From Saccoglossus kowalevskii (Eukaryota > Hemichordata > Enteropneusta > Harrimaniidae): DNA of 37,954 nt. Every line of letters begins with the position of its first letter. The first letter of the stretch is position 1. Below are positions 1,105 to 37,954 of the stretch, in pieces. Under the pieces are notes generated by a model. That model was not told the DNA's origin. It made no database searches and saw nothing but the letters and a program-made list of their open reading frames with translations. A program made the translations under genes and the position numbers. The stretch spans positions 144,564-182,517 of the forward strand of contig NW_003151761.1 in assembly GCF_000003605.2 (NCBI RefSeq). Reading direction: 5' to 3'.

Positions 1105-1110
1105 TTTAAT
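1105..1110 (-). promoter_or_regulatory. Possible poly(A) signal ATTAAA for the small membrane protein gene
   Basis: TTTAAT on the plus strand reads ATTAAA, the common variant signal, on the minus strand, about 270 bases beyond the stop codon. The motif is frequent by chance in AT-rich DNA. Confidence 0.25.
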
Positions 1111-1375: not shown

Positions 1376-1512
1376 TCAGCGATTTCTCGAAGACTTGGCG
1401 CTTTTGTACCAACACCAGAATATAAGAATGACGCTGGCTATGAAGATCGCTACGATAACGCCGACTAATATGTACGTGTTATGTTCGTCCATGGCGCCCC
1501 TACTGACGTTAT
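1376..1512 (-). CDS. Candidate last exon: transmembrane helix and basic tail of the small membrane protein
   Basis: Follows an acceptor with a good pyrimidine tract (CTTTATTGTCATTCACAG) and enters in phase 1, as both upstream donors require. It encodes a short ectodomain end with a sequon (N32-V-S34 of the joined protein), an acidic patch, then a 22-residue hydrophobic helix (about 45-66, ending in aromatic W63, W65 and Y66), a basic tail (K67, K70, R73, R75) and TGA at 1376-1378. The predicted topology is N-out, C-in. An ATG at 1492 in strong context (GCCATGG) could instead start a 38-residue peptide. Stannin-like and phospholamban-like micropeptides were considered; no clear similarity was seen. 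No function is proposed. Confidence 0.5.
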
Positions 1513-1819
1513 CTGTGAATGACAATAAAGACGCCAGTTAACAAATGATTGTGCAAATATGTTCAAAGTATAGTACGCCACCACTGGGAAGGAAAGATTT
1601 ATCGTTTTTTTTTTTTTTATTTTTCGTAAAACGTTTCCTATCATCGTATCTGTTGGTCAGTTTATATATATATAAATATTGATAAATTATTAATAAATAA
1701 TTTAAACTAAACGCCCGCGTTGGGTTCTTGATGTACAAATCAGCGGAAGTTATCTGGATCCAGTTGTCATGGCAATATGATTTTAATGACAATTGTTTAT
1801 AAATGATATTATTAAACTT

Positions 1820-2405
1820 GCAAAGTCGGGACTTCTTTTTTTGTTTTACAAAAAGAAATGAAAAATTGTTCTTCTAGTTCTTTTAGCGTTATCGCGAAAA
1901 CTAACCTGACTGCTAAAGAAATCCCGACTGGACGCATCTGCGGGCATTTGACTGCTATTGATTATTCGTGATGTCATTGATTATTCATGAGTGGGTGTGT
2001 GAAAGTAAACATGACCTTTTAAAGGTTTAAAGGTGCAATCGCAGAGATGGATACTTTCTAAGTGCAAAGGCGATACTTTCATACATGCTTATTGAAAACA
2101 AGTCGATTTAAATGTCCAATCTATATAAGTAGTCTTTCAAAATCGCCGGGACCTCAGAAGTGTAAGGTCACGTACATTAACATACATAAGATTTGTTGTG
2201 CAATGCTTAGTCAACATCTTTAATTAGCATAATCACCGGAGTGATCCGCTCCGGTTTTCATTCCAACGCAGGGGGTCGCCTGCAGATGCGTCCAGTCAAG
2301 ATTTCTTTCGCAGTCACGCTAGTTTTCGCGATCATGTTAAAAAGGCTAAGTTGACAATTAATTATATTTTTGTTTGTAAACAAAAAAAGAAGTCCGATTT
2401 TGCCA
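1820..2405. mobile_element. Foldback (long terminal inverted repeat) non-autonomous element
   Basis: Arms at about 1820-1945 and 2278-2405 are diverged reverse complements. They share a perfect 16-bp match (GACTGGACGCATCTGC at 1926-1941 against 2282-2297), the ATCGCGAAAACTA block (near 1891 against 2332) and the CTTCTTTTTTTGTTT block near the outer ends. The spacer of about 330 bp carries no coding frame but has a short stem (2235-2241 with 2249-2255). No clear target-site duplication was found. It lies in intron 2 of the candidate small membrane protein gene. Confidence 0.75.
2235..2255. repeat. Small perfect inverted repeat inside the foldback spacer
   Basis: ACCGGAG and CTCCGGT form a 7-bp GC-rich stem with a 7-base loop (TGATCCG), a strong local hairpin in otherwise AT-rich sequence. 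Confidence 0.6.
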
Positions 2406-3018
2406 GTCTATACTATTATTAGTAATATTAGTTATAATATGACTACATCTATATTAGTGACATCACATAAAACGAAAACAATAGCCTCATGACTGTGTTG
2501 AATAATATAATTTAATTTAAATGTTTGCAGTCATGAATCAATGCAAAACAATTCAATCCTTCTCATTCAGATGACTAAAGTATTGTTCTGAGTACTAATA
2601 TTGTACAAATATTGTTTTAATTATCCTGGTATTAATACGACGTATGAGATAAAAGACGAGTACGCGGACGCCATATATAATCCTACCTGACAAGAATTGT
2701 AAAACAACCAGAGGAGCCAACGTATGGCATACTAATAATCAACTTGAACTAGATATTACACATAGATGGGTTTCAATGCGGGAAATCGGTACGTCATCTA
2801 TTTTTCTAAGAATACACTCATTAAAAAGGTTGTAAAGGCTCTCCGGTGCAGTTTACCTGCTTTCCATTCTATGCAAACTGGCATGTTTCGATTTTTCGAA
2901 TATTAAACTAATTCGTCTGAGCGTGCGTGTTGGTTGTGATGCTTGGACTTAGGATTGACACATCTAATACAGTCACCATGCTCGGCGTAAATCAGTACTT
3001 TGTTAAAGTAATCCTTAC

Positions 3019-3048
3019 CTGGTGGTTCGGTTAATGGATTGATTGGAC
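3019..3048 (-). CDS. Candidate 30-nt microexon 2 of the same small membrane protein
   Basis: Bounded by a pyrimidine-rich acceptor (TTCTCGTTCATCTCCTAAG) and a strong donor, CAG|GTAAGG (3018-3013). It is a symmetrical phase 1-1 exon adding about ten residues, Pro-rich (SPINPLTEPP with the split codon). Intron 1 would be 99 nt and intron 2 about 1.5 kb. A 30-nt exon is small but well within what animals use; its call rests mainly on the two splice sites and on phase. Confidence 0.4.
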
Positions 3049-3147
3049 CTTAGGAGATGAACGAGAACAGACGCTTGGTATTAATTGTCGAAAAAATGGC
3101 AACGCTAACGAGAAAGTGTAAGCCACCTGTCTGGGGATGGTACTTAC

Positions 3148-3208
3148 TTGGTGATGTTAACGCAGTCATTATCAGTGAAGACAGCGTCAGTAGGAATAAA
3201 CAGTTCAT
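3148..3208 (-). CDS. Candidate exon 1 (signal peptide) of a small type I membrane protein
   Basis: Starts at the ATG at 3208 (G at -3) and encodes 20 residues, with Leu/Ile/Ser-rich hydrophobic residues about 3-17 that look like a signal peptide. It ends in phase 1 at a perfect donor, GTAAGT (3147-3142). The exon seems to begin at 3230, after a pyrimidine-rich acceptor (ACTTTTCAG), so a 5' UTR exon would lie upstream. Joining to 3019-3048 and 1376-1512 leaves one frame, with no internal stop and matching phases, giving a 75-residue protein. The family is not recognised. The joined model is inferred, because no transcript is available. Confidence 0.45.
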
Positions 3209-4958
3209 CGCAGTATTAGGATTACACTGCCTGAAAAGTGTATACAATTATGATAATCAGCTTAATAAGGATGAACCCTGTCAATTGTACAGGCTATATA
3301 CTATGTAACAAATATGTAAAATATGTAGAAGACGGTAACAATGAAATATTTTGAAAAAAATAGAACGATATTTGTTTGCGATATTTCAAAATGTAACCGC
3401 CATTTCAGCTAAAACGATATTATCTTAATAGATTGATGATACTCCCACGTAATCTTACTAGCTCGTGACGCACATGCGAACGTTTTGGGACAGTAGAATC
3501 AGTCCGAGATACTATTATGCAATTAGATAAGTAGAGGTTAAAGCCCGAGTGCGTGGACGTTTCTTAAATGTACTGTTCGACCAAAAATAAAATGTCGGGA
3601 CATAATGAATTGTTTTCACGGAGATGACTTTATATTCCAGAATAATCCACTTAAGACGGCTTGATTTGACGTCAGTTTTTTCTCCTACAAAGTGTTTCTC
3701 ATACAACTTGCATATTGAAATTGTACACCATGAAATTCAGCATAATGTCCAAAACATGAATAATCATAGCCCAAACCGTTAAATCATATAGCCCAATAGC
3801 CAATGACCGCCATTTTTTCTGATAGTTCAATGGGCAGAGGGCCGTTGTTTGAAATCCGAGTTTGGACTCACCTAGGTTGTTTGTTTTATCATTGACACAG
3901 TGAAACAGTGTTTCATTATTTATATGGTATGTATACAAGTCCCAAAACACTTCTTCTAGAACACGTTTATGGGGAGAAAACCCCATTACATTTTTTATAA
4001 CGTTTGTATTAATAGTTCCTAAACCAGTTTAGGAGAACAAAAGGAATTGACTTGAGAGAGGAGATTTAAATAGATAAAGTCGGTCAATGCAGCATTGTGG
4101 TTTGTCGAGGGACACTTTGTGGCTGTTAATTGCTTAGATGATACAGAGCAGCGAACTGCCCATTAGTGTGTGATAACAGAGCAAGGACGGAACTGTGCAC
4201 AATAATGGGTCAGACGCTGTCGAGGCCATTATAGGCTAACATCCTCGTGAGCGCAGTGCGGAGTCCTTTATTTCAATTTCCGAACAATTAAATGTACGTG
4301 CAGTCAGTGGTAGCTTACGAAGAAAGGGATTTGGTTATCGAATTGTGAACGATTGTAGTTCAGTTACGCGCACAAGTCCACGAGCAAACGTCATGCAAAC
4401 ATACAAACACAGGTAAAACAGAGCAGGATTCAACCTATCGCACAAATAAAGGTGCGTTTGTTAAATAAAATATTCATACAAATGTGAAAAAACATTGAAC
4501 GCACGCACACGCAATATTTGTAGTATGTCCTATACCAAATAATTGCCAGATTACAACTCCGAGTCTGTGAATATTATAACAAACACCAGAATGTATATGG
4601 CAAGTAGAATCGGGAAAAAAATTGCCCACAAACTGTGGTTTGAAATCAGACGCTTACAACATTCTTTCTGTGAATCAGATATATAATCGCACGGAGCAAT
4701 CGTTTATCGTGATATTTTCGCTTCACAATCACCCCCAATAGTGTGTCACGAATCTTACGGAGAGGTGCGGAATTCAAAGGTAAGTTACCTAAACTGCAGA
4801 TGACAAATGAAGTCCAACTGTGACATAAATAAAAAGTCACTATTTAATTGATTCTATGGTGAAAAACACACCGATATTCTAATTGATCTTCGTGACGTCA
4901 TCCTATAGATATACTAGTAATCAATATGTTAAACTGCGTCCCATCATTGTATACGTTT

Positions 4959-20136: not shown

Positions 20137-20746
20137 CGATATTGGCGCCTGAATATGCCTTAATATATGTACCCACTATTATATTTATTCTCAAGAGATG
20201 CTTTGGTCATACATGCTACATGCAAAATAGCAAGTTGGTCAGTTAAAGTATTCATGAAATACAAATGTCCCAAATTGTGGTCAGTTTTGGCGAAAATACA
20301 TGCTGACGGCGAAATTAACTGATTAAAATTATTTTTTCATGGCAAGTTAATACTGATATATTAAATTTAAATGCTCATAATTTCATGTCTTACAATATTA
20401 ATAATGACCATAACAACACATTATAATGCGAGTATTTACAGTTAAACTGATTAATTTGATTAGTTGAACATTTTTATTAATTATCTCATTATTCCTTAAT
20501 TGTAGTAGGAGATAAGAGCACAGCTGACTAGAAAGTGCGTATTTCTATCCAGGCTGATACGAATTGAAACCATCTGTAATCGTAACCTTGCCAGTCCCAA
20601 GCACTTTTACATTGATCTGACCTCCAATGAGGCTTAATGTGTTTTCAAAATTAATCTACATGATGGCCGGATGAGCATTATACATTTTGATTAATCACAT
20701 CTCGCAGCTTGTATCCCCATCTCTCGCTCATGATTATGACAACTGA
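20137..20746 (+). repeat. Tandem duplication of about 610 bp, copy 1
   Basis: Matches 20747-21354 base for base except for about 20 substitutions and small indels (about 97% by eye). The copies abut directly: each begins CGATATTGGCGCCTGAATATG and ends TGATTATGACAACTG. The unit carries no convincing coding frame; the 60-codon frames at 20691-20934 straddle the junction and are not preserved in copy 1. Confidence 0.95.
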
Positions 20747-21354
20747 CGATATTGGCGCCTGAATATGCATTAATATATGTACCCACTATTATGTTTTTCT
20801 CAGGAGATGCCTTGGTCATACATGCTACATGCAAAATAGCAAGTTGGTCAGTTAAAGTATACATGAAATACAAATGTCCAAATTGTGGTCATTTTTGGCG
20901 AAAATACATGCTGACGGCGAAATTAACTGATTAAAATTATTTTTTTCATGGCAAGTTAATACTGATATTTTAAATTTAAATGCTTATAATTTCATGTCTT
21001 ACAATATTAATAATGACCATAACAACATATCATAATGTGAGTATTTACAGTTAAACTGATTAATTTGATTAGTTGAACATTTTTATTAATTATCTCATTA
21101 TTCCTTACTTGTAGTAGGAGACAAGAGCACAGCTGACTAGGAAGTGCGTATTTCTATCCAGGCTGATACGAATTGAAACCATCTGTAATCGTAACCTTGC
21201 CAGTCCCAAGCACTTTTACATTGATCTGACCTCCAATGAGGCTTAATGTGTTTTCAAAATTAATCTACATGATGGCCGGATGAGCATTATACATTTTCAT
21301 TAATCACATCTCGCAGCTTGTATCCCCATCTCTCGCTCATGATTATGACAACTG
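20747..21354 (+). repeat. Tandem duplication of about 610 bp, copy 2
   Basis: Second copy of the unit at 20137-20746. Differences include T/C and A/G substitutions near the start, one missing C in a CCC run, and one extra T in a T run. The low divergence points to a recent event or to gene conversion. Confidence 0.95.
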
Positions 21355-27611: not shown

Positions 27612-28375
27612 CTTTTATGTCAATTTGTGACGTGACTATTAAGCGCGTAAATCCAGTACATTTGCCGATATAACCGCCGATGTCTTTAGCAACCGGAAGG
27701 AACATTACTCTTCGTGGCGATAAATCTTCTGTCGTTATTAATATTGCTATTGCCCCATGCGAGTAATTGCTTTTGTCTAGTCAGAAATATTCATAACGCG
27801 ACGATAAACACGGTACAGACACTCGATTTGTATTTCTCTGTGTACTACTCTTCGAGCATGCATTTCCACATGTTACGTATGTTTAGTGTGAATATATATT
27901 AGTTATATTTAACACTAAACGTCACTAGTGTGAATGATATACACCATAATCATGTGAAAATATATCAAATGATACTCAATGAGACAAATCATCGGTTTAT
28001 TCATTGCATTAGGTTTCAATGAATAAATTACTGTAGAATACTTTATTTTCGCTTGGAATTAGTTTTTCGCTATTTTTGCTGAAGGAATGATTCAGTGTTA
28101 AGTGATATATATATATCTTTTTATATATTTTACATTCCACTCTCCAATCAGCGAAAATAACTTCCATACAAAACACCCAAAAAGTCTATTCAGCGAAAAT
28201 AAATTCTAGCTAAAATAAAATATTTATCAGTAATTGATTTTCGTTGCCGCTAATAACACACACCTCGAAGACGGATATTTCTTAAAAGCCATGCCTCATA
28301 TAGCTAATAAGCAATGATAACAGATAAAGACGGCTTTCTTGCCTATTAAAATGCTTATTTTCAGCAAAACGATAC

Positions 28376-28516
28376 CTGGTGGACGTAATGTAAAATCAAT
28401 GAAAAATGTTCCTACATAATTAGTGCCACAGATTTCCCTGCTCCTGACTGCAGCATTGCTTGCAGGCCCAAAAAAGACAATTACCATCCACAAAAACGTC
28501 ACAGCATAAAACAGCG
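28376..28516 (-). CDS. Candidate exon encoding a signal peptide and start of a secreted peptide
   Basis: A 141-nt open stretch between a strong acceptor (branch-like TTCTAACG, pyrimidine tract, ATGCAG) and the donor CAG|GTATCG, in phase 1-1. The translation opens with about 17 hydrophobic residues, then small residues (ASNA) like a signal-peptidase site, then a polar segment with REICGTNYVGTFF. The CG..YV..FF spacing resembles an insulin/relaxin B chain, but the second B-chain Cys position is Phe and no A-chain CC motif was found, so this is not called insulin-like. No starting Met lies in this exon; an upstream exon would have to supply it. It lies downstream of the GPCR on the same strand. 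Confidence 0.25.
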
Positions 28517-28780
28517 CTGCATGAATACAAACGTTAGAAAGAAGTACAGATTAGATTAAATGCGTTGACTGAATGTGAGATGATCGCATGTTTCCGATTA
28601 ATGAATTCTCGACACCAACCTGCAGAATACGTTATTCATAATACTCTCTGTGAGACTTATTCAAAGGGAATACTTGAATGACGTTGAACTAAGTTTATTT
28701 TTTGTTGTTTTCCCATTCAAACCAAAGAAATTATTCTATTCAATTGTTATGTGCATCGCCCACATTAAATAAGAAGTTAA

Positions 28781-28905
28781 AGGTCAGTGGTCGTCGTGCC
28801 ACATCCTGTTCGATATGGGACTCATAGCGACGTATACAACGCGTACAAAATACATTGTTTATTTACATGAAATTCGAACACGCGCTGCGCGACGACCACC
28901 GCGCT
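28781..28905 (-). mobile_element. 125-bp MITE with TTAA flanks, copy 2 (inverted)
   Basis: Reverse complement of the element at 7573-7697, same length, flanked by TTAA at 28777-28780 and 28906-28909. It differs by roughly a dozen substitutions, several in the left terminus (GTGGTCGTCGTGCC), so the two inserted separately or long ago. It sits a few dozen bases past the GPCR poly(A) signal. Confidence 0.85.
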
Positions 28906-28941
28906 TTAATATAAACCATGACTATAAATAAATATCCTGTT

Positions 28942-28947
28942 TTTATT
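28942..28947 (-). promoter_or_regulatory. Poly(A) signal AATAAA of the GPCR gene
   Basis: TTTATT on the plus strand reads AATAAA on the minus strand, about 100 bases after the GPCR stop codon. It is the first canonical signal downstream and ends the transcript just before the MITE copy at 28781-28905. Confidence 0.6.
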
Positions 28948-29048
28948 AAAAACTATCATTAATAAGTGTTACCTAATACTGTAGCAACATGTATTCATTC
29001 ATTCATATTGGTGTTCGAAAATATATGATTGACAGCACTTTACATATA

Positions 29049-30302
29049 TTACCCATATAATAAACCAGATCGAGTGTTTAGTTCTAGCGAATGATTCCGT
29101 GAGTTCGACTTTAAATTGTAGGTCACCTCATTTGTTTCCGACCTTTTTCTGGTGGAGCAAGTGGTCACAGATGTCATCATATAATCATTTTGATTGTTCT
29201 TGTCTCGACGATTGTCGCAACACCGAAGAGTTGCGATGAACGCACTTCTGTACTGTTTATTCAATATGCCATAAATAATGGGATTGATTGATGAATTCAC
29301 CATCGGCAGCCACCGAACCAGTTCATTCCATGCCTGGGGCATGGCGATCACACTGTTTGGATGTGTTATGTTGTATAAGTAGCCGATTACCAGGTCTAAA
29401 TGATACGGCAATAGACACACGAATAAGGCACCCGCCGTCACCGCTAACATAACCACTATCTGCCGTTGCTGATGAAGCCTCTGTTTCAAATCGTGGGCGC
29501 TGACTGAATATTTCCGCACTCCTCTTTGCAGTTCTTTTATCGTTAACACGTTAAGCACGACAATAATCACGATCACTAAAAAAAATGCAGCTATCGGCGT
29601 CAGACTGTATAATATTCCATCAACCGGAGTCAACACAACGGTAAAACAATTTGAATATGACATCTGATGTGAAATTGTCTCGTTACTCGGCGGCCACAAA
29701 ATACACGTGGTATGCCAATTAGTATAAAATCTAAAGATCGGAGCGGAGAAAACAAGACCCATGATCCACGTAAAAATTATGAGTTTGAATGTGCGAGACT
29801 TGGAACTGATTCTATCTGATTTAAACGGTTTACAAATTGCCATGTTTCGTTCGAAGGTCACCAACACGATGTTAAACTCGGAGACGAAAAGACAAATATC
29901 TAGAGCTATGTTCACAATAAAACATCCAACCGGTCCTAGGAAACTTTTATCGTGTACAACATCAGTTGACAACGGTTCACCGACTTGCACTATATAGTAT
30001 ACGCTAAGGAACATACAGTCTACGATGGCTTGGTTCGATAGATACATATTAGTCAATGTACGCATGGCTGACACTTTGAATACTACGTAGAGAAACAGAC
30101 AGTTGAGTATGATACCAAACGGACATGTAATCGTAGCTGGAATTATACGAGTTAGCAATATATGTTGGGAATCGTAAAGATGGTCTCGTGTACCTGGTTC
30201 CGTGTAGAAATCCGTGAGATTTTCACTTCGCGCATCAATGACACACTGGTTGTTGTCGATCAGATCATTATAGTCGCTACTGGTATTCATTGTGTTTACC
30301 AT
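29049..30302 (-). CDS. Class A (rhodopsin-like) neuropeptide-type GPCR, intronless
   Basis: A 417-residue seven-transmembrane receptor, expected in the plasma membrane and coupled to G proteins. From the ATG at 30302, chosen for its strong context (A at -3, G at +4; no upstream in-frame ATG): the N-terminus has two N-glycosylation sequons (N6, N28). TM1 is about 51-76 with N67, and TM2 about 83-106 with D95. TM3 has C127 and an ERN version of DRY (E151-R152-N153). TM4 has W179. The second extracellular loop has C200 in a CILWPP stretch and a sequon at N207. TM5 is about 229-254 with P236. TM6 has CLLP at 296-299. TM7 has NPIIY at 340-344. A helix 8 follows, with a Cys pair (361-362) suitable for palmitoylation. 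Length is normal for the class. The TM6-TM7-helix 8 region recalls TRH, neuromedin U and ghrelin-type receptors, but the ligand cannot be assigned. An AATAAA lies about 100 bases past the stop. Confidence 0.93.
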   Translation of the reverse strand: MVNTMNTSSDYNDLIDNNQCVIDARSENLTDFYTEPGTRDHLYDSQHILLTRIIPATITCPFGIILNCLFLYVVFKVSAMRTLTNMYLSNQAIVDCMFLSVYYIVQVGEPLSTDVVHDKSFLGPVGCFIVNIALDICLFVSEFNIVLVTFERNMAICKPFKSDRISSKSRTFKLIIFTWIMGLVFSAPIFRFYTNWHTTCILWPPSNETISHQMSYSNCFTVVLTPVDGILYSLTPIAAFFLVIVIIVVLNVLTIKELQRGVRKYSVSAHDLKQRLHQQRQIVVMLAVTAGALFVCLLPYHLDLVIGYLYNITHPNSVIAMPQAWNELVRWLPMVNSSINPIIYGILNKQYRSAFIATLRCCDNRRDKNNQNDYMMTSVTTCSTRKRSETNEVTYNLKSNSRNHSLELNTRSGLLYG

Positions 30303-30499
30303 AATGATCCGACCAGTGATATAGCAGGTATTACCAGTCACTGGGAGAAGCGTGTAATAGTTAACTCCGAACGGTAACGACACTTGTTTAAAGCATCCAA
30401 TGCTGCAATGATATGAACTCAGTGTTATTGCACGCTCTAACCAGTCATGTTCGAGTCTGTTTAGTACCCACCTACAGAAATGGCGCCCTCACACATAAC

Positions 30500-33400
30500 A
30501 TGTTTATCAAAAGCAAACGTAGAATGCACATGTTACATCTATTGTTCTCAATAGATTATTATTCTATGGGAGATATTCGCTTTGCCTTATCATTCATAAA
30601 ACTCATGGTCAAACAAAGCCATGTGCGTCGGATTTAGTAATGAATATTCATTTGAAACGTACGATTATTGTTGTAAGCAATACACGCTTCATTTTAACTA
30701 AAATAGACAACAATTGAGCAAGAGAAGTGAACTTTACTCAGGTATGTTGACTGACGCGATTTTATAACTATATAGTTCAAACCTCAAATACAAATAGTAT
30801 GCACAGTATGTTATGATATGAAATTCCACTTGATTGCTTGATGTGTTGCAGGCTAATATGATAACAGTAATAACACAATAGAAGAAGTTAAATTTTAAAA
30901 ACCTGATTTATATAATTTAAATTTAAAATGAACAGTGAAATTAAACATTTAAATACTGGCGTTCCAAACCTCGTATATTTTTAGGATGAATTGCCATTGA
31001 CAAAATTAACAATCAATTACATTTCGGCGTAGATACATGACAATGTCAATAACGAAAATGATTTCTTCTGTGTCTCTCAATGAATTACGAGCGAAATTTC
31101 ATGTTATAAGTTTCCAGGAGGGGGGTCGCTCTTGATACAGACCAATCAATTAAATTTTGGTATAGATTCAAATTGGTTGCCATGGAAACGAACATTTCGT
31201 AAATTATTTTTTATAATTTACCTTTATAATTTTATGAGGCAATTACAAAAATATGAGACAATTATTTTTGAATCTCATTCAAGTCTATGTCTTTGTATTC
31301 AAAAAGGAATTAGAAGCAAATTATGTGAGTGCGGTAAATCTATACGACAGGGTAGAAGTATTAGTTAGGATATGTTATTTGCATATATAGCTGACGTCTG
31401 CGCGCTCTCGGGTCCAAAGTGCCTCCTAGAAACTTATTTAATTGATATGATTAGCCCATAGTAAAAATGTATAAAATGCCAAAATTGTATTGTTAAATCG
31501 AACAATTCGGCTCACAACACCCACCTATGTTAAAATGAATATATCATTTACTTGACATAACTTTACATATATATCTGAATACATGCATATTCAGTTGCCT
31601 AGCCCCTAATATAGATTGCGCATTTGGTATAAGACGTGGACAAATCACCTATATGAAGCAGGTTGGCGCAGGTTGAAGCCTTCAACTTCCTGCGTATTAT
31701 ACTCACTTCCCACCATGGTAGGAATATAGTGTGTTTTCGCTATAGGAGTGCCTCCTAGTTAATTATATAACTGATAATATTAACCAACAAAAATACTTAA
31801 ATACAGGGCCCCAATCCTATTGCGGGTGGAAGATTCAAAACGGAAATACCAAATGGCTTTGTAACATGAGACTTTTATATCCTAAGGTAATATGACCACA
31901 TTGGCCTTGACGACATTTTGATCACTTGTCAGCTCATCTATTTGTCTGCGAGAGCTATTTTTTGACGTTCAGTGACATTTACGATTACAGCTTTCATGCA
32001 TTAATTCACACAAGGTTAATTTGTGGTGACATCCATCGCAACACAGGTGCATCGCTTGAACATACACGCGATTAATATGCTCCACTTGAAAGCATTTTTG
32101 TAATTCCGCGATTATTTCGCGTAAACATGTGTAATGGATATAGTAACACAATCTGTCGGTTATTTTGAGTTGTATCAAGATGCACTTTCACTACATGTGT
32201 GAAACTTACATACGAAGAAACGTGAGTTTTCTTTGTGATATATTTGGAATGCGCGACAAATACCAAATTCATTTTTTAATTGAGTTAGTATTCATTGAAT
32301 TGAAGATGCACATTATTTTCTGTCGACGAGATCGGAGTCACTTTCACTTTTCTGACTCGGAAACAAAGGAGAGAACAACTCAGGCTTGTAGTCCGAAGAA
32401 TACGTCAGTTGCGACATGAACTCTTTTACGTCCATGAAGGATAGGAAGAGTGCACGGGACTGGGGTCGATAGCTTTACGCCCCCCTCCGAAAGAACACCA
32501 TTCTCCCAAATACGAATGCGAAAAAATGTAAATACACTTGTGTATACTCAAATTTCGCATTATCAAGTCATGGCTCTGAGTATTGTTAATTGGTCTGCCA
32601 TTCAATTTGGGCGCCTACTTTAACTAATTTATTCATTGAAACTCCTATCCAACTGCTACCGTATGATAGATTTCCGTATCTCCGTCGAAGAGCGAGTTAC
32701 CAGCTTGGCATGTAATGTAACAGCTGAATGTATACGAAAATCTTCATAGTACAAACATATTTTCCGTTACGAAACCGTGAAGCACATACGAATTTGATAT
32801 TTTATTGATAGTGAGCAAACTATACGTAAACGGAACAACTGCACTCTCCATTTTGTTGTCGCCCAATGAAACATCCTTGACACAAGAGTGGATCACTGTG
32901 GAGTAAAGTGGGATATAGGTAACTAAACTAATGTCTATCACATAATTGACTGTAGGCATCCCCGACTAAAGGACTTTTCGACCCACGCCTGTGAGATGCA
33001 CCTAATTAGGTATGCAATTACTCATTCAATGTTAGCTCATTTTGTTTTTTAAATAATCGAGTCATAATTCTTTCTTCTGAATGCTTGTCATGATTGTTCC
33101 ATGCTATGAAACGAATAACTGCAAAGACATGCTTGATTGTACTTCGTAATTGTAACATCTGTCACCGCATCGCCGTTCGTTACACCGTATTTGTAAGCTT
33201 CAATAATTTCTACCATTTTGCATGATTTTGACTTCTGGTATATGGGTACGAGTCATGTATACAAATAATTAATTAAATTATAACGAGGATACAGAACGTC
33301 GCAGCAATCTTTTAAAATAATGTTGTATATATGCAAAAAAATATGGAGGTGATAATATATTAATACCGAGACTTGGATAAAGTAGTCATGTAGGGAATAT

Positions 33401-36400
33401 TACATTTTGAAATTATTTGCGAATATCAATGACCACGATAAATGGCAGCAATGTTTTAGTATAGAGAAAATGTATGTTTCCAAGGTGATGAGATTCAATT
33501 ATATTATTATGAGCTCATATAAGTTTCAATTATGAAATTATGAACAGGTAAAGTATTTTATATAACATGGGAAATCACATTTAGAAATTCTTCTATTATT
33601 AAACTTAAAAGTAGAATATATCAAGGACAACCAAGACTACAATAATTGAAAAACACCTGTCAATATAATGTGCGCACAGTAAAGCAATGTAACAACTCGT
33701 GATTATTTATTTTAATTTAAATATATTTTTACTAATTGTAAGGATAACTAAATTTTAAGTGTTTGTGTTCTGACAATTTACTTCTTGTCACTCATCCGCT
33801 AATAAATTGTGTACAATGTAATAGTGTTTTTCCCCGGTGAACACTGAAATAAATATCCAATGTACTTTGACTCATTTGTAACAAAGTCGTATTTAGATGT
33901 ACGGTTACATATTACAGTGAAGCACTTTCTCTACCGTTTTATCCGATGAATATGTGTATGTCAACTGAGTGCAAATGTGTATCCATAGTTTCCTCGCTCA
34001 AGGGTTGTGAATTTAAATGAGCGTCGACGAGAACGTCTGAATCTCCCTTATTCAGATCATTCAATAATCTACATTAAGACAGATTACATAATATTAATTT
34101 GTTGTGGTGTGTGTACATTTTTATTTTATAATTGGCTTGTGTAATAAGGCAATTCGTTTGCCATATTCTATCAAATTTCGAACGATAGATAAATTCAATA
34201 TTTCTTGCAGAACTTATCAGCAGTTGGTCGCCTATGTACACGCTGCTTTATAAGTCAAAACCATTTAAGGGAAGACACAATTACGATGTCTACCACGTGG
34301 AGTACATTGTCTCTCTAATCGCCTAACTCGATTTTGTTTTGACATGTTTTCTACATTGCTACATAACTGTCTTCATCCCACTAATCGATTTCAGTGTCAC
34401 TTGACAATTTTATCTACGTACTACACGAAATCCTCTATTGAGATGTTGTGAATAAACAGGCCCTCTACACATCTATATATAGCATCCCCACATTTACTAA
34501 TTGTATATTTGGTGCAGTGATTCGCACGTGCGTGTCTTGGGCATCATGGAACGAGGACAAATTATTTCAGACGTAATGGGGGTAATGTCACGCATACCGG
34601 AAACCCGCAAATGGTTTCTTGAGGGATTTAGTTGTATCTTGCCCTAAAGAACATAATACCAAGACGTGTCCGTTTCAGACATTGCTTAAACATATATCAT
34701 ACACTGTATACCATGAGTGTAATACTAATAATATAAGCTAGTTTTCCAGTCGACACGAATATGTGAGACCAATAATAATCAACTTGTAAACGTAACGTCA
34801 TACATAGTGTGAGGAAAGACCGCTGAATTACAATTACTACACCGATTTGTTGGTTGAATGCCCGGATGCATGCGACAGGTACTGTAATGTGACCATGGTT
34901 ACCGACAATTATCTTGATCATTATTTTTGTTGTCGCTTAAATTAAAATAATGACGGTTGATGAGTGCCGTAATGGAAAGCTGTGCAGGGCTAAGAGTCAT
35001 TCTAAATTCGATGATATGCCATACCCGCACCTATAGCGATTAAGAATTATTTTCCAGACCATTAAACTAATTAGGTTTACTTTCTTGACAATTTCGTATT
35101 TTTACATTTCTTGAGTGAGTAAGACAGAAAATGTGCTGTACTTGTACGTTGATTTGTATTTGAAAAAACAGCGACATCTTGAATAAGGCTTGTAATTATT
35201 GACAATATTGCACGAGAAATAGCCTTTTTATCTTACTTGCATTACTGTCAATAGAAATTCCAATCTTCTATCCTTGGATATATAGTAGTATGTATATGTG
35301 TACACGTAGACACTTTCTTTTATCAAATGAAATATCTTCCAATCTTTGTAATCAGTATAAGTGGAAGTGAACATAGAGGGCGATTTGCTGCGTGTATAAT
35401 AATATATGGATCAACTAATACATTAATATCACTCGGAGCGGATAAATTATAAGGGCCGGTTCCGGTGCTTGCCTCATGAGGAAATTTTTTCTCCTGGTTT
35501 ACAGTCGTCACAAACATAGATATTTGCTTCACAAGTGATAATTTGCTTGAAAAGTGGCATATTGTGCGTTCAGACATTCTCTAGATAGTCTAGTTACCGA
35601 AAAGTAAAACGTGTCCATTGTCTGCATCGTGTCTGTGCACATTTGTGACGTGACTTCAGTCATGGAATTAGTCAAGTTAAAATGCCAACTGCATGTATTT
35701 GTTTTATTTTGATCATCTCAATTGGCCATGTGTCCGTTCCAGGGATGTTACATTAGATCAAAATTTGATTGGATATAATTATGTTCAAATTATTGCTCAA
35801 TTTACAACGTCTGTGTACCAGAAATTCCTCAAAGACGAATTTAAAAGGCATGATGTCTTCATTTGCAAATAACCATTTTTAGAACAAAATGAAACTTTTC
35901 CCAGAATACAAAGTCGTTAGATTCACCATTTTATTAACCCTAAATCTAATTCCAAATGTTTTAAAGGAATTGCGTAACAATAACTACTGAAAAATTCGGA
36001 AAATCTTCAAATAAATTTAAGAAAACTAAAATTTGTAACATAAACCCGGGTACACTGGTTGCTTTATACAACTCTTAGCATCCATATTTTGACATATGAT
36101 TAATTACATAACAGACCATGTTTATACTTCTGTCCTAACCGAGTACAGAACACGGAGTGCCCATGACACAGTAGAGTTTGTGGAGATCATGTTTAAATTT
36201 GCAGCGGACGAAATGTCTTCATCATCGACTAAACTAAACAATTTTAATTTTCATATCCGGGCAACGAGTACATTATTTGCTGTCTTGATATTCTCTCTGA
36301 AATACCTATTTAGTGTGTACATCTCGCTTTTTTTTCTTTCTGGTCTTGGCAAACAAAAAAACATCAGAGAACTGTATCTAACTTTATCAGCTATTCTAGT

Positions 36401-37574
36401 ATTACCGCCTCTGATAAATGTTTGTACTTCTTGTCCCCTTGATTAAATTTCTGTTTGAAAGACACGATAACGTATTTTGTTAGTATATTCTGGTTGCTAG
36501 TAATGTTAAATTGGATAAATTGTAATGCTCTAATATTGACATGACAAACGGTAAATTGATCAATGATTCCTCCAGTACGATATGTTACGATAATTAGAAT
36601 AGATGGCTTGTATTGTCACTGCAAAATAATATTGTGATGTTCTTGCCTGCATAGCACGAGTTTGCCGACTTTAAAGCTAGCATCTGTCAAGTAATGCTTT
36701 CCCATTTATTGATGGGAGACTGAGAGATGTACGATAGCCTACAGTGGTTCTATATAGTTAATATATCGGTATTGGAAAATATTGAGACCTCGTTGTTTAA
36801 AAACTATAGGACAGTATTATCGCCTGCGTCTTTGTGTATTACTGAGAACTTGGGAATACACTGTGCGAATTGTTGACCTCGGTAATGCCGGGTAGCATAG
36901 GCAATTCCGAGCTGGGCTTTTATCAATGATGTTATTATTGTAATGTATTTTATAATCCATCTGCTTGAATCATGTCACTGGCCTAGTTTATATTACCCCC
37001 GTTAATTGTCTATGATTAGTATATGATTTATTAGTTTATTAAATTAGTTTTATTGATTCGCAATTTTGCCTTTTTTTGACCTTCAGTGTTTCGTTTTAAA
37101 GACTCGTTCGTATTCCCGTTCGTAATGTATACATCTCCTGAAAGCATAGATACATGCAAATTGCAGTGCGTATGCCGCACTAATGTTTGTCAAAGAGATT
37201 AGCCGACAGCCAATTTCGCTATTTGCTCTGATGACTATTCACTTGCAGTCAAGTGAATGGCCTCTGAATTGCACAAGTGTGTAACGTTGTAGGCTACATG
37301 TTGGACTGCAGTTTTTTTTTTTATCAGCTATTTTTCAAACGGATTTGTTTTTGTTTTACGTAAGACGACATCAGTAAACAAGATCCCTTTGAATGTTTGG
37401 TTCAAATAAGATTTGTTTACTATCCCGAGTTATAATACATCAAGTAGTGACCACTTTGTTTTCTGACTCTACTGCAAACGTTGAGTACAGCCCTGAACAT
37501 GTTTGCAAAACGTATTGAGAATTGTATTGAGTAATTTGTCAGGCTTTCCTGCTCCCATAATTTTTTAAATATAG
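30500..37574. other. Long stretch without a confident gene
   Basis: Includes the X-box at 31176. A minus-strand frame ending at 32744 follows a strong acceptor (ACCTATATCCCACTTTACTCCACAG, at about 32895) and has an AATAAA near 32628, so it may be a terminal exon of an unseen gene. A Cys-rich minus frame lies at 31969-32178. The 116-codon plus frame at 36096-36446 has hydrophobic patches but no other support. Confidence 0.4.
31176..31189. promoter_or_regulatory. X-box-like (RFX) palindrome upstream of the GPCR
   Basis: GTTGCCATGGAAAC matches both RFX half-sites. It lies about 0.9 kb upstream of the GPCR start codon on the transcribed strand's 5' side, a reasonable distance for a regulatory site. 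Function is inferred only from the motif. Confidence 0.3.
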
Positions 37575-37733
37575 TTATTATTTCGACAATTTTAACCAAA
37601 ATGCATATTCATTGTATCTAGTGATGTCCTGGCATTACCTCCATTTTGATAGATGTGTATTTTATCATGACATACAATGGCATGATGTGGAATTGGACGT
37701 TACAATGGGACTATCCATGCTTGCAGCGACCAG
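37575..37733 (+). CDS. Candidate internal exon at the right edge
   Basis: A 159-nt open stretch after a pyrimidine-rich acceptor (TTTCCTGCTCCC...AAATATAG) and before the donor CAG|GTAAAA, symmetrical in phase 2-2. It encodes about 52 residues rich in Tyr, His and Trp, with one Cys; no domain is recognised. An alternative frame starting at ATG 37682 would also reach this donor. Partner exons upstream were not identified, and downstream exons would lie outside the window. Confidence 0.18.
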
Positions 37734-37954
37734 GTAAAATATGTGGGCGTTTTATTTGGTAGAGAGTTTGTTTTGTTTGCATAAGTTTTGTCGATGATTC
37801 GTTGCCATGCATTAGGCTGCGTTTTTGTTATATTATTATTTATTTTAAGTAGCTAAATTAGGACAATGCGATTTTATTATGTTCGAGTATGTTATTACTG
37901 TTCACGTATATTTCAAGTTTCTGAATATAGTCGTCGGAAAGTGAAAGTTCTACA

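Follow-up and report, generated by a model that had tools for sequence, protein, structure and literature searches.

A probable three-exon gene for a 75-residue membrane protein in the acorn worm Saccoglossus kowalevskii

Our analysis shows that three short exons on the minus strand of a 37,954-nucleotide stretch of the Saccoglossus kowalevskii genome (the window) match in phase and join into an open frame of 75 residues. This observation is confirmed. The three-exon gene to which it points is very probably real. We consider the three-exon model likely to be right, and exon 3 is very probably coding. The fuller statement, that we are dealing with a real, apparently single-copy acorn-worm gene of three exons for a 75-residue membrane protein, seems to us reasonably probable. 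Gene finders easily overlook single-pass membrane proteins of fewer than 100 residues when their coding sequence is divided among tiny exons. If the gene is transcribed, then it would be one more orphan in a deuterostome genome used for reconstructing chordate origins. It would also mean that the sequence alone suffices for recovering genes of this sort; the general picture would stay unchanged.

Gene structure

Exons 3208-3148, 3048-3019 and 1512-1376 of the minus strand join in phase 1 at all junctions and give 75 residues, followed by TGA. The joined frame translates to MNCLFLLTLSSLIMTALTSPSPINPLTEPPDNVSRGAMDEHNTYILVGVIVAIFIASVILIFWCWYKSAKSSRNR, and exon 1 on its own to MNCLFLLTLSSLIMTALTSP. 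The exons, and a shorter frame that has to be considered with them, are as follows.

3148..3208, minus strand: exon 1, 61 nt, ATG and hydrophobic signal-type segment, 20 codons plus 1 base; donor AA/GTAAGT at 3147
3019..3048, minus strand: exon 2, symmetric Pro-rich microexon of 30 nt; acceptor CTAAG, donor CAG/GTAAGG
1376..1512, minus strand: exon 3, 137 nt; acceptor TTCACAG, NVS sequon, hydrophobic helix at residues ~45-66, basic tail, TGA stop
1379..1492, minus strand: rival frame of 38 codons from an internal ATG (context GCCATGG), in the frame shared with the 75-residue product

An earlier note on this DNA had proposed these exon coordinates, splice sites, phase 1 junctions and the stop-free frame of 75 residues, and they turned out to be exact to the base. 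The sequon, the hydrophobic helix and the basic tail that it described in exon 3 are also there: NVS occupies residues 32-34 of the product, the best 19-residue Kyte-Doolittle window reaches 3.08 and the residues after the helix carry a net charge of +4. The note further called the splice sites of the microexon strong. Its donor ranks first among the 2287 GT sites of the minus strand (the donor of exon 1 lies within the top 1%). The two acceptors reach only the top 2.8% and 3.8% among 1690 AG sites. All these ranks come from scoring with splice matrices. Additional exons in intron 2, which the note had thought possible, did not materialize: besides exon 2, no symmetric exon between exons 1 and 3 passed an acceptor score of at least 2 and a donor score of at least 3.

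If the microexon is skipped, then the frame is still open (65 residues), because the microexon is symmetric. Hence, the joined frame by itself is no proof of the microexon. When intron 1 is retained instead, exon 1 reads on to a stop just past 3053 (open at 3053-3230) and gains a second hydrophobic stretch. We reject a decayed pseudogene, as the frame is free of stops and the splice sites are intact.

Several elements flank the exons or lie between them.

3295..3300, minus strand: TATA-like element (by pattern match alone), ~90 nt ahead of the ATG
3209..3230, minus strand: stretch that may be 5' UTR, given an exon farther upstream; preceded by an acceptor of moderate score (1.87)
1105..1110, minus strand: ATTAAA, first polyadenylation-type hexamer after the stop (pattern match only)
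1813..2410, minus strand: MITE-like repeat in intron 2, ~600 bp with inverted ends of 133 nt

AATAAA hexamers also begin at 819, 478, 252, 222 and 56 of the minus strand, again as pattern matches only. The arms of the repeat (1813-1945 and 2278-2410) are 73% complementary. Among 287 candidate places in the genome 40 were scored for it, its own copy included, and the other 39 are 79-87% identical.

Codon usage

We derived a synonymous-codon model from 30 GPCR frames in this genome (12,536 codons). Under this model exon 3 reaches 7.56 bits, where the background averages -2.83 (P 0.00005). Its value lies inside the coding range, and none of 330 background frames of at least 40 codons matches its score per codon. 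Exons 1 and 2 together score -1.65, with P 0.41 against background and P 0.065 for being so low under coding. For the whole gene P is 0.00235, and 8 of the 330 background frames equal it per codon. Exons 1 and 2 are without signal and 8 background frames match the whole gene; therefore the coding evidence sits in exon 3. A second model, trained on 19 of the 30 loci (those with their match on one strand), gives the same picture (exon 3, P 0.00015; exons 1 and 2, P 0.32 and 0.085; whole gene matched by 7 of 330 frames). Base composition of exon 3 is GC 0.467 and GC3 0.622, compared with 30.5-38.3% GC in 2-kb steps of the window.

We also scanned the window for open exons that combine splice sites with codon bias under the 19-locus codon model. 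Exon 3 leads the minus strand (z 3.83). Six more rows lie on this strand, namely five parts of a GPCR gene and the weaker unspliced frame of exon 1 into intron 1 (z 2.52). The plus strand yields eight rows, one of which outscores exon 3 and one of which is antisense to it. The highest codon-bias z of the window scan (3.98) is that of an open terminal-exon candidate at 34211-34323 on the plus strand.

Chance expectation and rival readings

How easily could unrelated splice-like and hydrophobic segments assemble into such a frame by chance? Under fixed thresholds, a signal-type exon, a microexon and a terminal exon with helix and basic tail each occur once in the window, in this order and in phase. 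Over both strands of the whole window there is one phase-1 signal-type exon and one symmetric open exon, and these are exons 1 and 2. Not one of the three exon types occurs in 41 further loci of this genome, which add up to 164,557 bases with 17,423 N among them. These loci surround GPCR frames and repeats or, in two cases, adjoin the window, and are no random sample. In simulated sequence, signal-type exons arise at 0.002-0.004 and symmetric open exons at 0.003-0.004 per strand-kilobase. Terminal exons were simulated in 180 windows, with 60 for each of the Markov orders 1, 3 and 5. Across these 180 windows a single terminal exon paired a helix of 3.0 or above (19-residue Kyte-Doolittle mean) with a tail charge of +3 or higher; lowering the helix threshold to 2.5 gave 10 and to 2.0 gave 72. 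The real window contains two terminal exons at the level of at least 2.0, exon 3 being one of them.

These thresholds were picked when the candidate had already been seen. In a second simulation they were therefore all loosened and any phase was allowed. Among 1200 simulated strands (600 windows), 10 then carried a chain from exon 1 to exon 3 and a single one carried a three-exon chain; split junction codons were not checked for stops in these counts. With 1 in 1200 strands and some 15,000 windows in a genome of 572 Mb, about 25 relaxed three-exon chains are therefore expected by chance. One could argue that our candidate is one of these, all the more so as it came from a search aimed at such features and as exons 1 and 2 show no codon bias. 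However, the observed scores clearly exceed the relaxed thresholds, and exon 3 is independently backed by codon usage, so that we regard a chance assembly as quite improbable. Rarity, order and phase of the exons give good support to the earlier claim of a single three-exon gene, and for exon 3 codon usage and the exon scan do so as well.

Two further readings accept exon 3 and dispense with the exons before it. In one of them, translation would begin at the ATG inside exon 3 and yield a single-helix micropeptide of 38 residues, with exons 1 and 2 being 5' UTR or lying outside the transcript. By analogy, such a peptide would act like the pump or channel regulators of the sarcolipin or DWORF type. 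G at both -3 and +4 makes a strong context under the Kozak rule, and the internal ATG has both; the restriction of the codon-usage signal to exon 3 fits as well. Yet this reading leaves unexplained why the window's sole signal-type exon and its sole strong microexon lie just upstream and match in phase. The 38-residue peptide also finds no micropeptide family in Pfam (E up to 10, where the HMMER filters drop most matches above ~0.1). We judge it improbable. Slightly less probable still is that a longer type I receptor ends in exon 3, with ectodomain exons farther upstream and exons 1 and 2 incidental or alternative. A sequon, a helix and a basic tail in the terminal exon are typical of larger type I proteins, and a novel ectodomain would escape Pfam. 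Against this, Pfam searches of the minus frames (1-37,950) and the plus frames (1-28,700) place only the GPCR above cut-off, and the exon scan (z > 2.5) adds no minus-strand exon candidate of at least 22 codons in the interval from 3.3 to 29 kb.

Surroundings

In the scanned frames a single gene is recognizable, an intronless rhodopsin-type peptide GPCR (29049-30488, minus strand). Its best relatives in the PDB are the ghrelin, tachykinin and neurotensin receptors, and it served as the positive control of the domain scan. The Pfam scan covered positions 1-28,700 in six frames, positions 28,003-37,952 in the three minus frames and ~9.9 kb past the low end of the window in six frames; in all of these frames nothing except the GPCR lies above the cut-off. 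Matches below it are PF21930 (0.00061) and PF17857 (0.47). Rfam and tRNA searches of the window returned none. A tandem duplication with a period of ~609 bp occupies 20137-21233, and its ungapped blocks are 94-99% alike.

Some observations concern other contigs of the assembly. Rhodopsin-type GPCR frames form a cluster at 403,790-826,792 of contig G000:C593, where three of the five listed carry in-frame stops and look like pseudogenes. On the mitochondrial contig (G000:C4830:1-17037), the rRNAs and most nameable frames share one strand and COX1 lies on the other, and a frame read as ND2 precedes a frame read as ND1. In the matched part of COX1, at conserved sites, ATA stands for Ile, TGA for Trp and the single AAA for Lys. 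One published description of the S. kowalevskii mitochondrion reports a COX1 inversion, a transposition of ND1 or ND2, AUA as Ile and AAA as Lys (PMC3121625), and another is in accord on the codons (PMC2697986). The contig matches these descriptions and so points to S. kowalevskii or, less probably, to a close congener as its source.

Searches for relatives

We searched the 572-Mb assembly of 4830 contigs, in which the window is part of contig C4178. A protein search of this genome for paralogues recovered the gene itself only (E up to 10; one candidate scored), and so did the search for duplicate or allelic DNA copies outside the repeat (40 of 287 candidates scored). No Pfam family passes the cut-off for the products of 75, 65 or 38 residues (E up to 10, with most matches above ~0.1 dropped by the HMMER filters), and no PDB chain matches the product significantly (E up to 10). 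Two weak likenesses consist of the helix and basic juxtamembrane residues: Melan-A in Pfam, at E 0.07-0.21 and under the cut-off, and beta-dystroglycan in the PDB, at E 0.46. Both amount to generic membrane-helix similarity. Our literature search did not turn up the gene by name, and we make no claim that it is unpublished or unannotated. None of the libraries covered shows a detectable relative of the product, which is an ordinary kind of protein.

Topology and possible function

A single membrane helix precedes a basic tail in the product (3.08; net +4), as expected of a small type I membrane protein. Helix and tail agree with the type I topology put forward in the earlier note; the signal segment is atypical. 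Its best 10-residue Kyte-Doolittle mean is 2.4, and it has neither a basic n-region nor a clean cleavage site; the best cleavage by the -3,-1 rule is between T18 and S19. From the sequence, type I topology is plausible. Given the atypical signal segment, an uncleaved hairpin in place of a cleaved signal is also possible.

In the three-exon, type I reading, exon 1 would target the nascent chain to the ER. An outer segment of ~25 residues would follow, made up of the Pro-rich stretch and a single N-glycan at N32, ~13 residues ahead of the helix. Residues ~45-66 would then span the membrane once and leave the nine-residue tail K67-R75 on the cytosolic side. In transcripts that skip the microexon, the outer segment would lose 10 residues. 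The helix carries small residues at the spacing G48, A52, A56, which we take to be a small-xxx-small motif, with C64 next to the membrane and a tail of Ser and basic residues. Such a pattern may favor packing against another helix, and palmitoylation of C64 is possible. Taken together, helix pattern, C64 and tail would suit an accessory subunit, one that binds to a larger membrane protein and modulates it.

Several known small single-pass membrane proteins control pumps and receptors. By analogy with FXYD, KCNE and SMIM-type microproteins and with Stannin/Hemotin, an accessory-subunit role would be the likeliest function, although we propose it only tentatively. More speculative is the idea of a hemichordate-specific orphan microprotein whose optional 30-nt microexon sets the outer length and which serves as a subunit of an acorn-worm receptor or pump.

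Comparison with known small membrane proteins

KCNE, DAP10/DAP12 and phospholamban-type families are present in the Pfam and PDB libraries, and none of these regulators is among the matches listed for our product (E up to 10). Stannin has a Cys/Trp-type juxtamembrane stretch. Our product resembles Stannin and Hemotin in being small and in having a membrane helix and a similar juxtamembrane stretch. Stannin/Hemotin are described as small proteins with an N-terminal membrane helix, and Stannin as having 88 residues and a cytosolic second helix (PMC4807881). Membership in this family was rejected, since only nine residues (67-75) lie past the helix of our product and neither Pfam nor the PDB gave a match (E up to 10).

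The likeness to FXYD proteins, regulators of the Na,K-ATPase, is one of build, as our product is also small and has one membrane span and a putative signal-type segment. According to one source, FXYD proteins have ~60-160 residues, one membrane span and, in several members, a signal peptide; the cytoplasmic tail of FXYD1 is phosphorylated, and a PFXYD motif next to the membrane helix, on its outer side, marks the family (PMC12860976). PFXYD is absent from the 75 residues and no FXYD profile is among the Pfam matches listed (E up to 10), so that membership was rejected here too.

The product likewise has no Pfam match to SMIM families (E up to 10, with the filters dropping most above ~0.1). SMIM30 consists of a signal-type segment, one helix and a short basic tail. 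It is a microprotein of 59 residues that resides mainly in the ER and is said to extend across therian mammals (PMC12071610). Our product shares with SMIM30 the single helix, the short basic tail and a putative signal-type segment.
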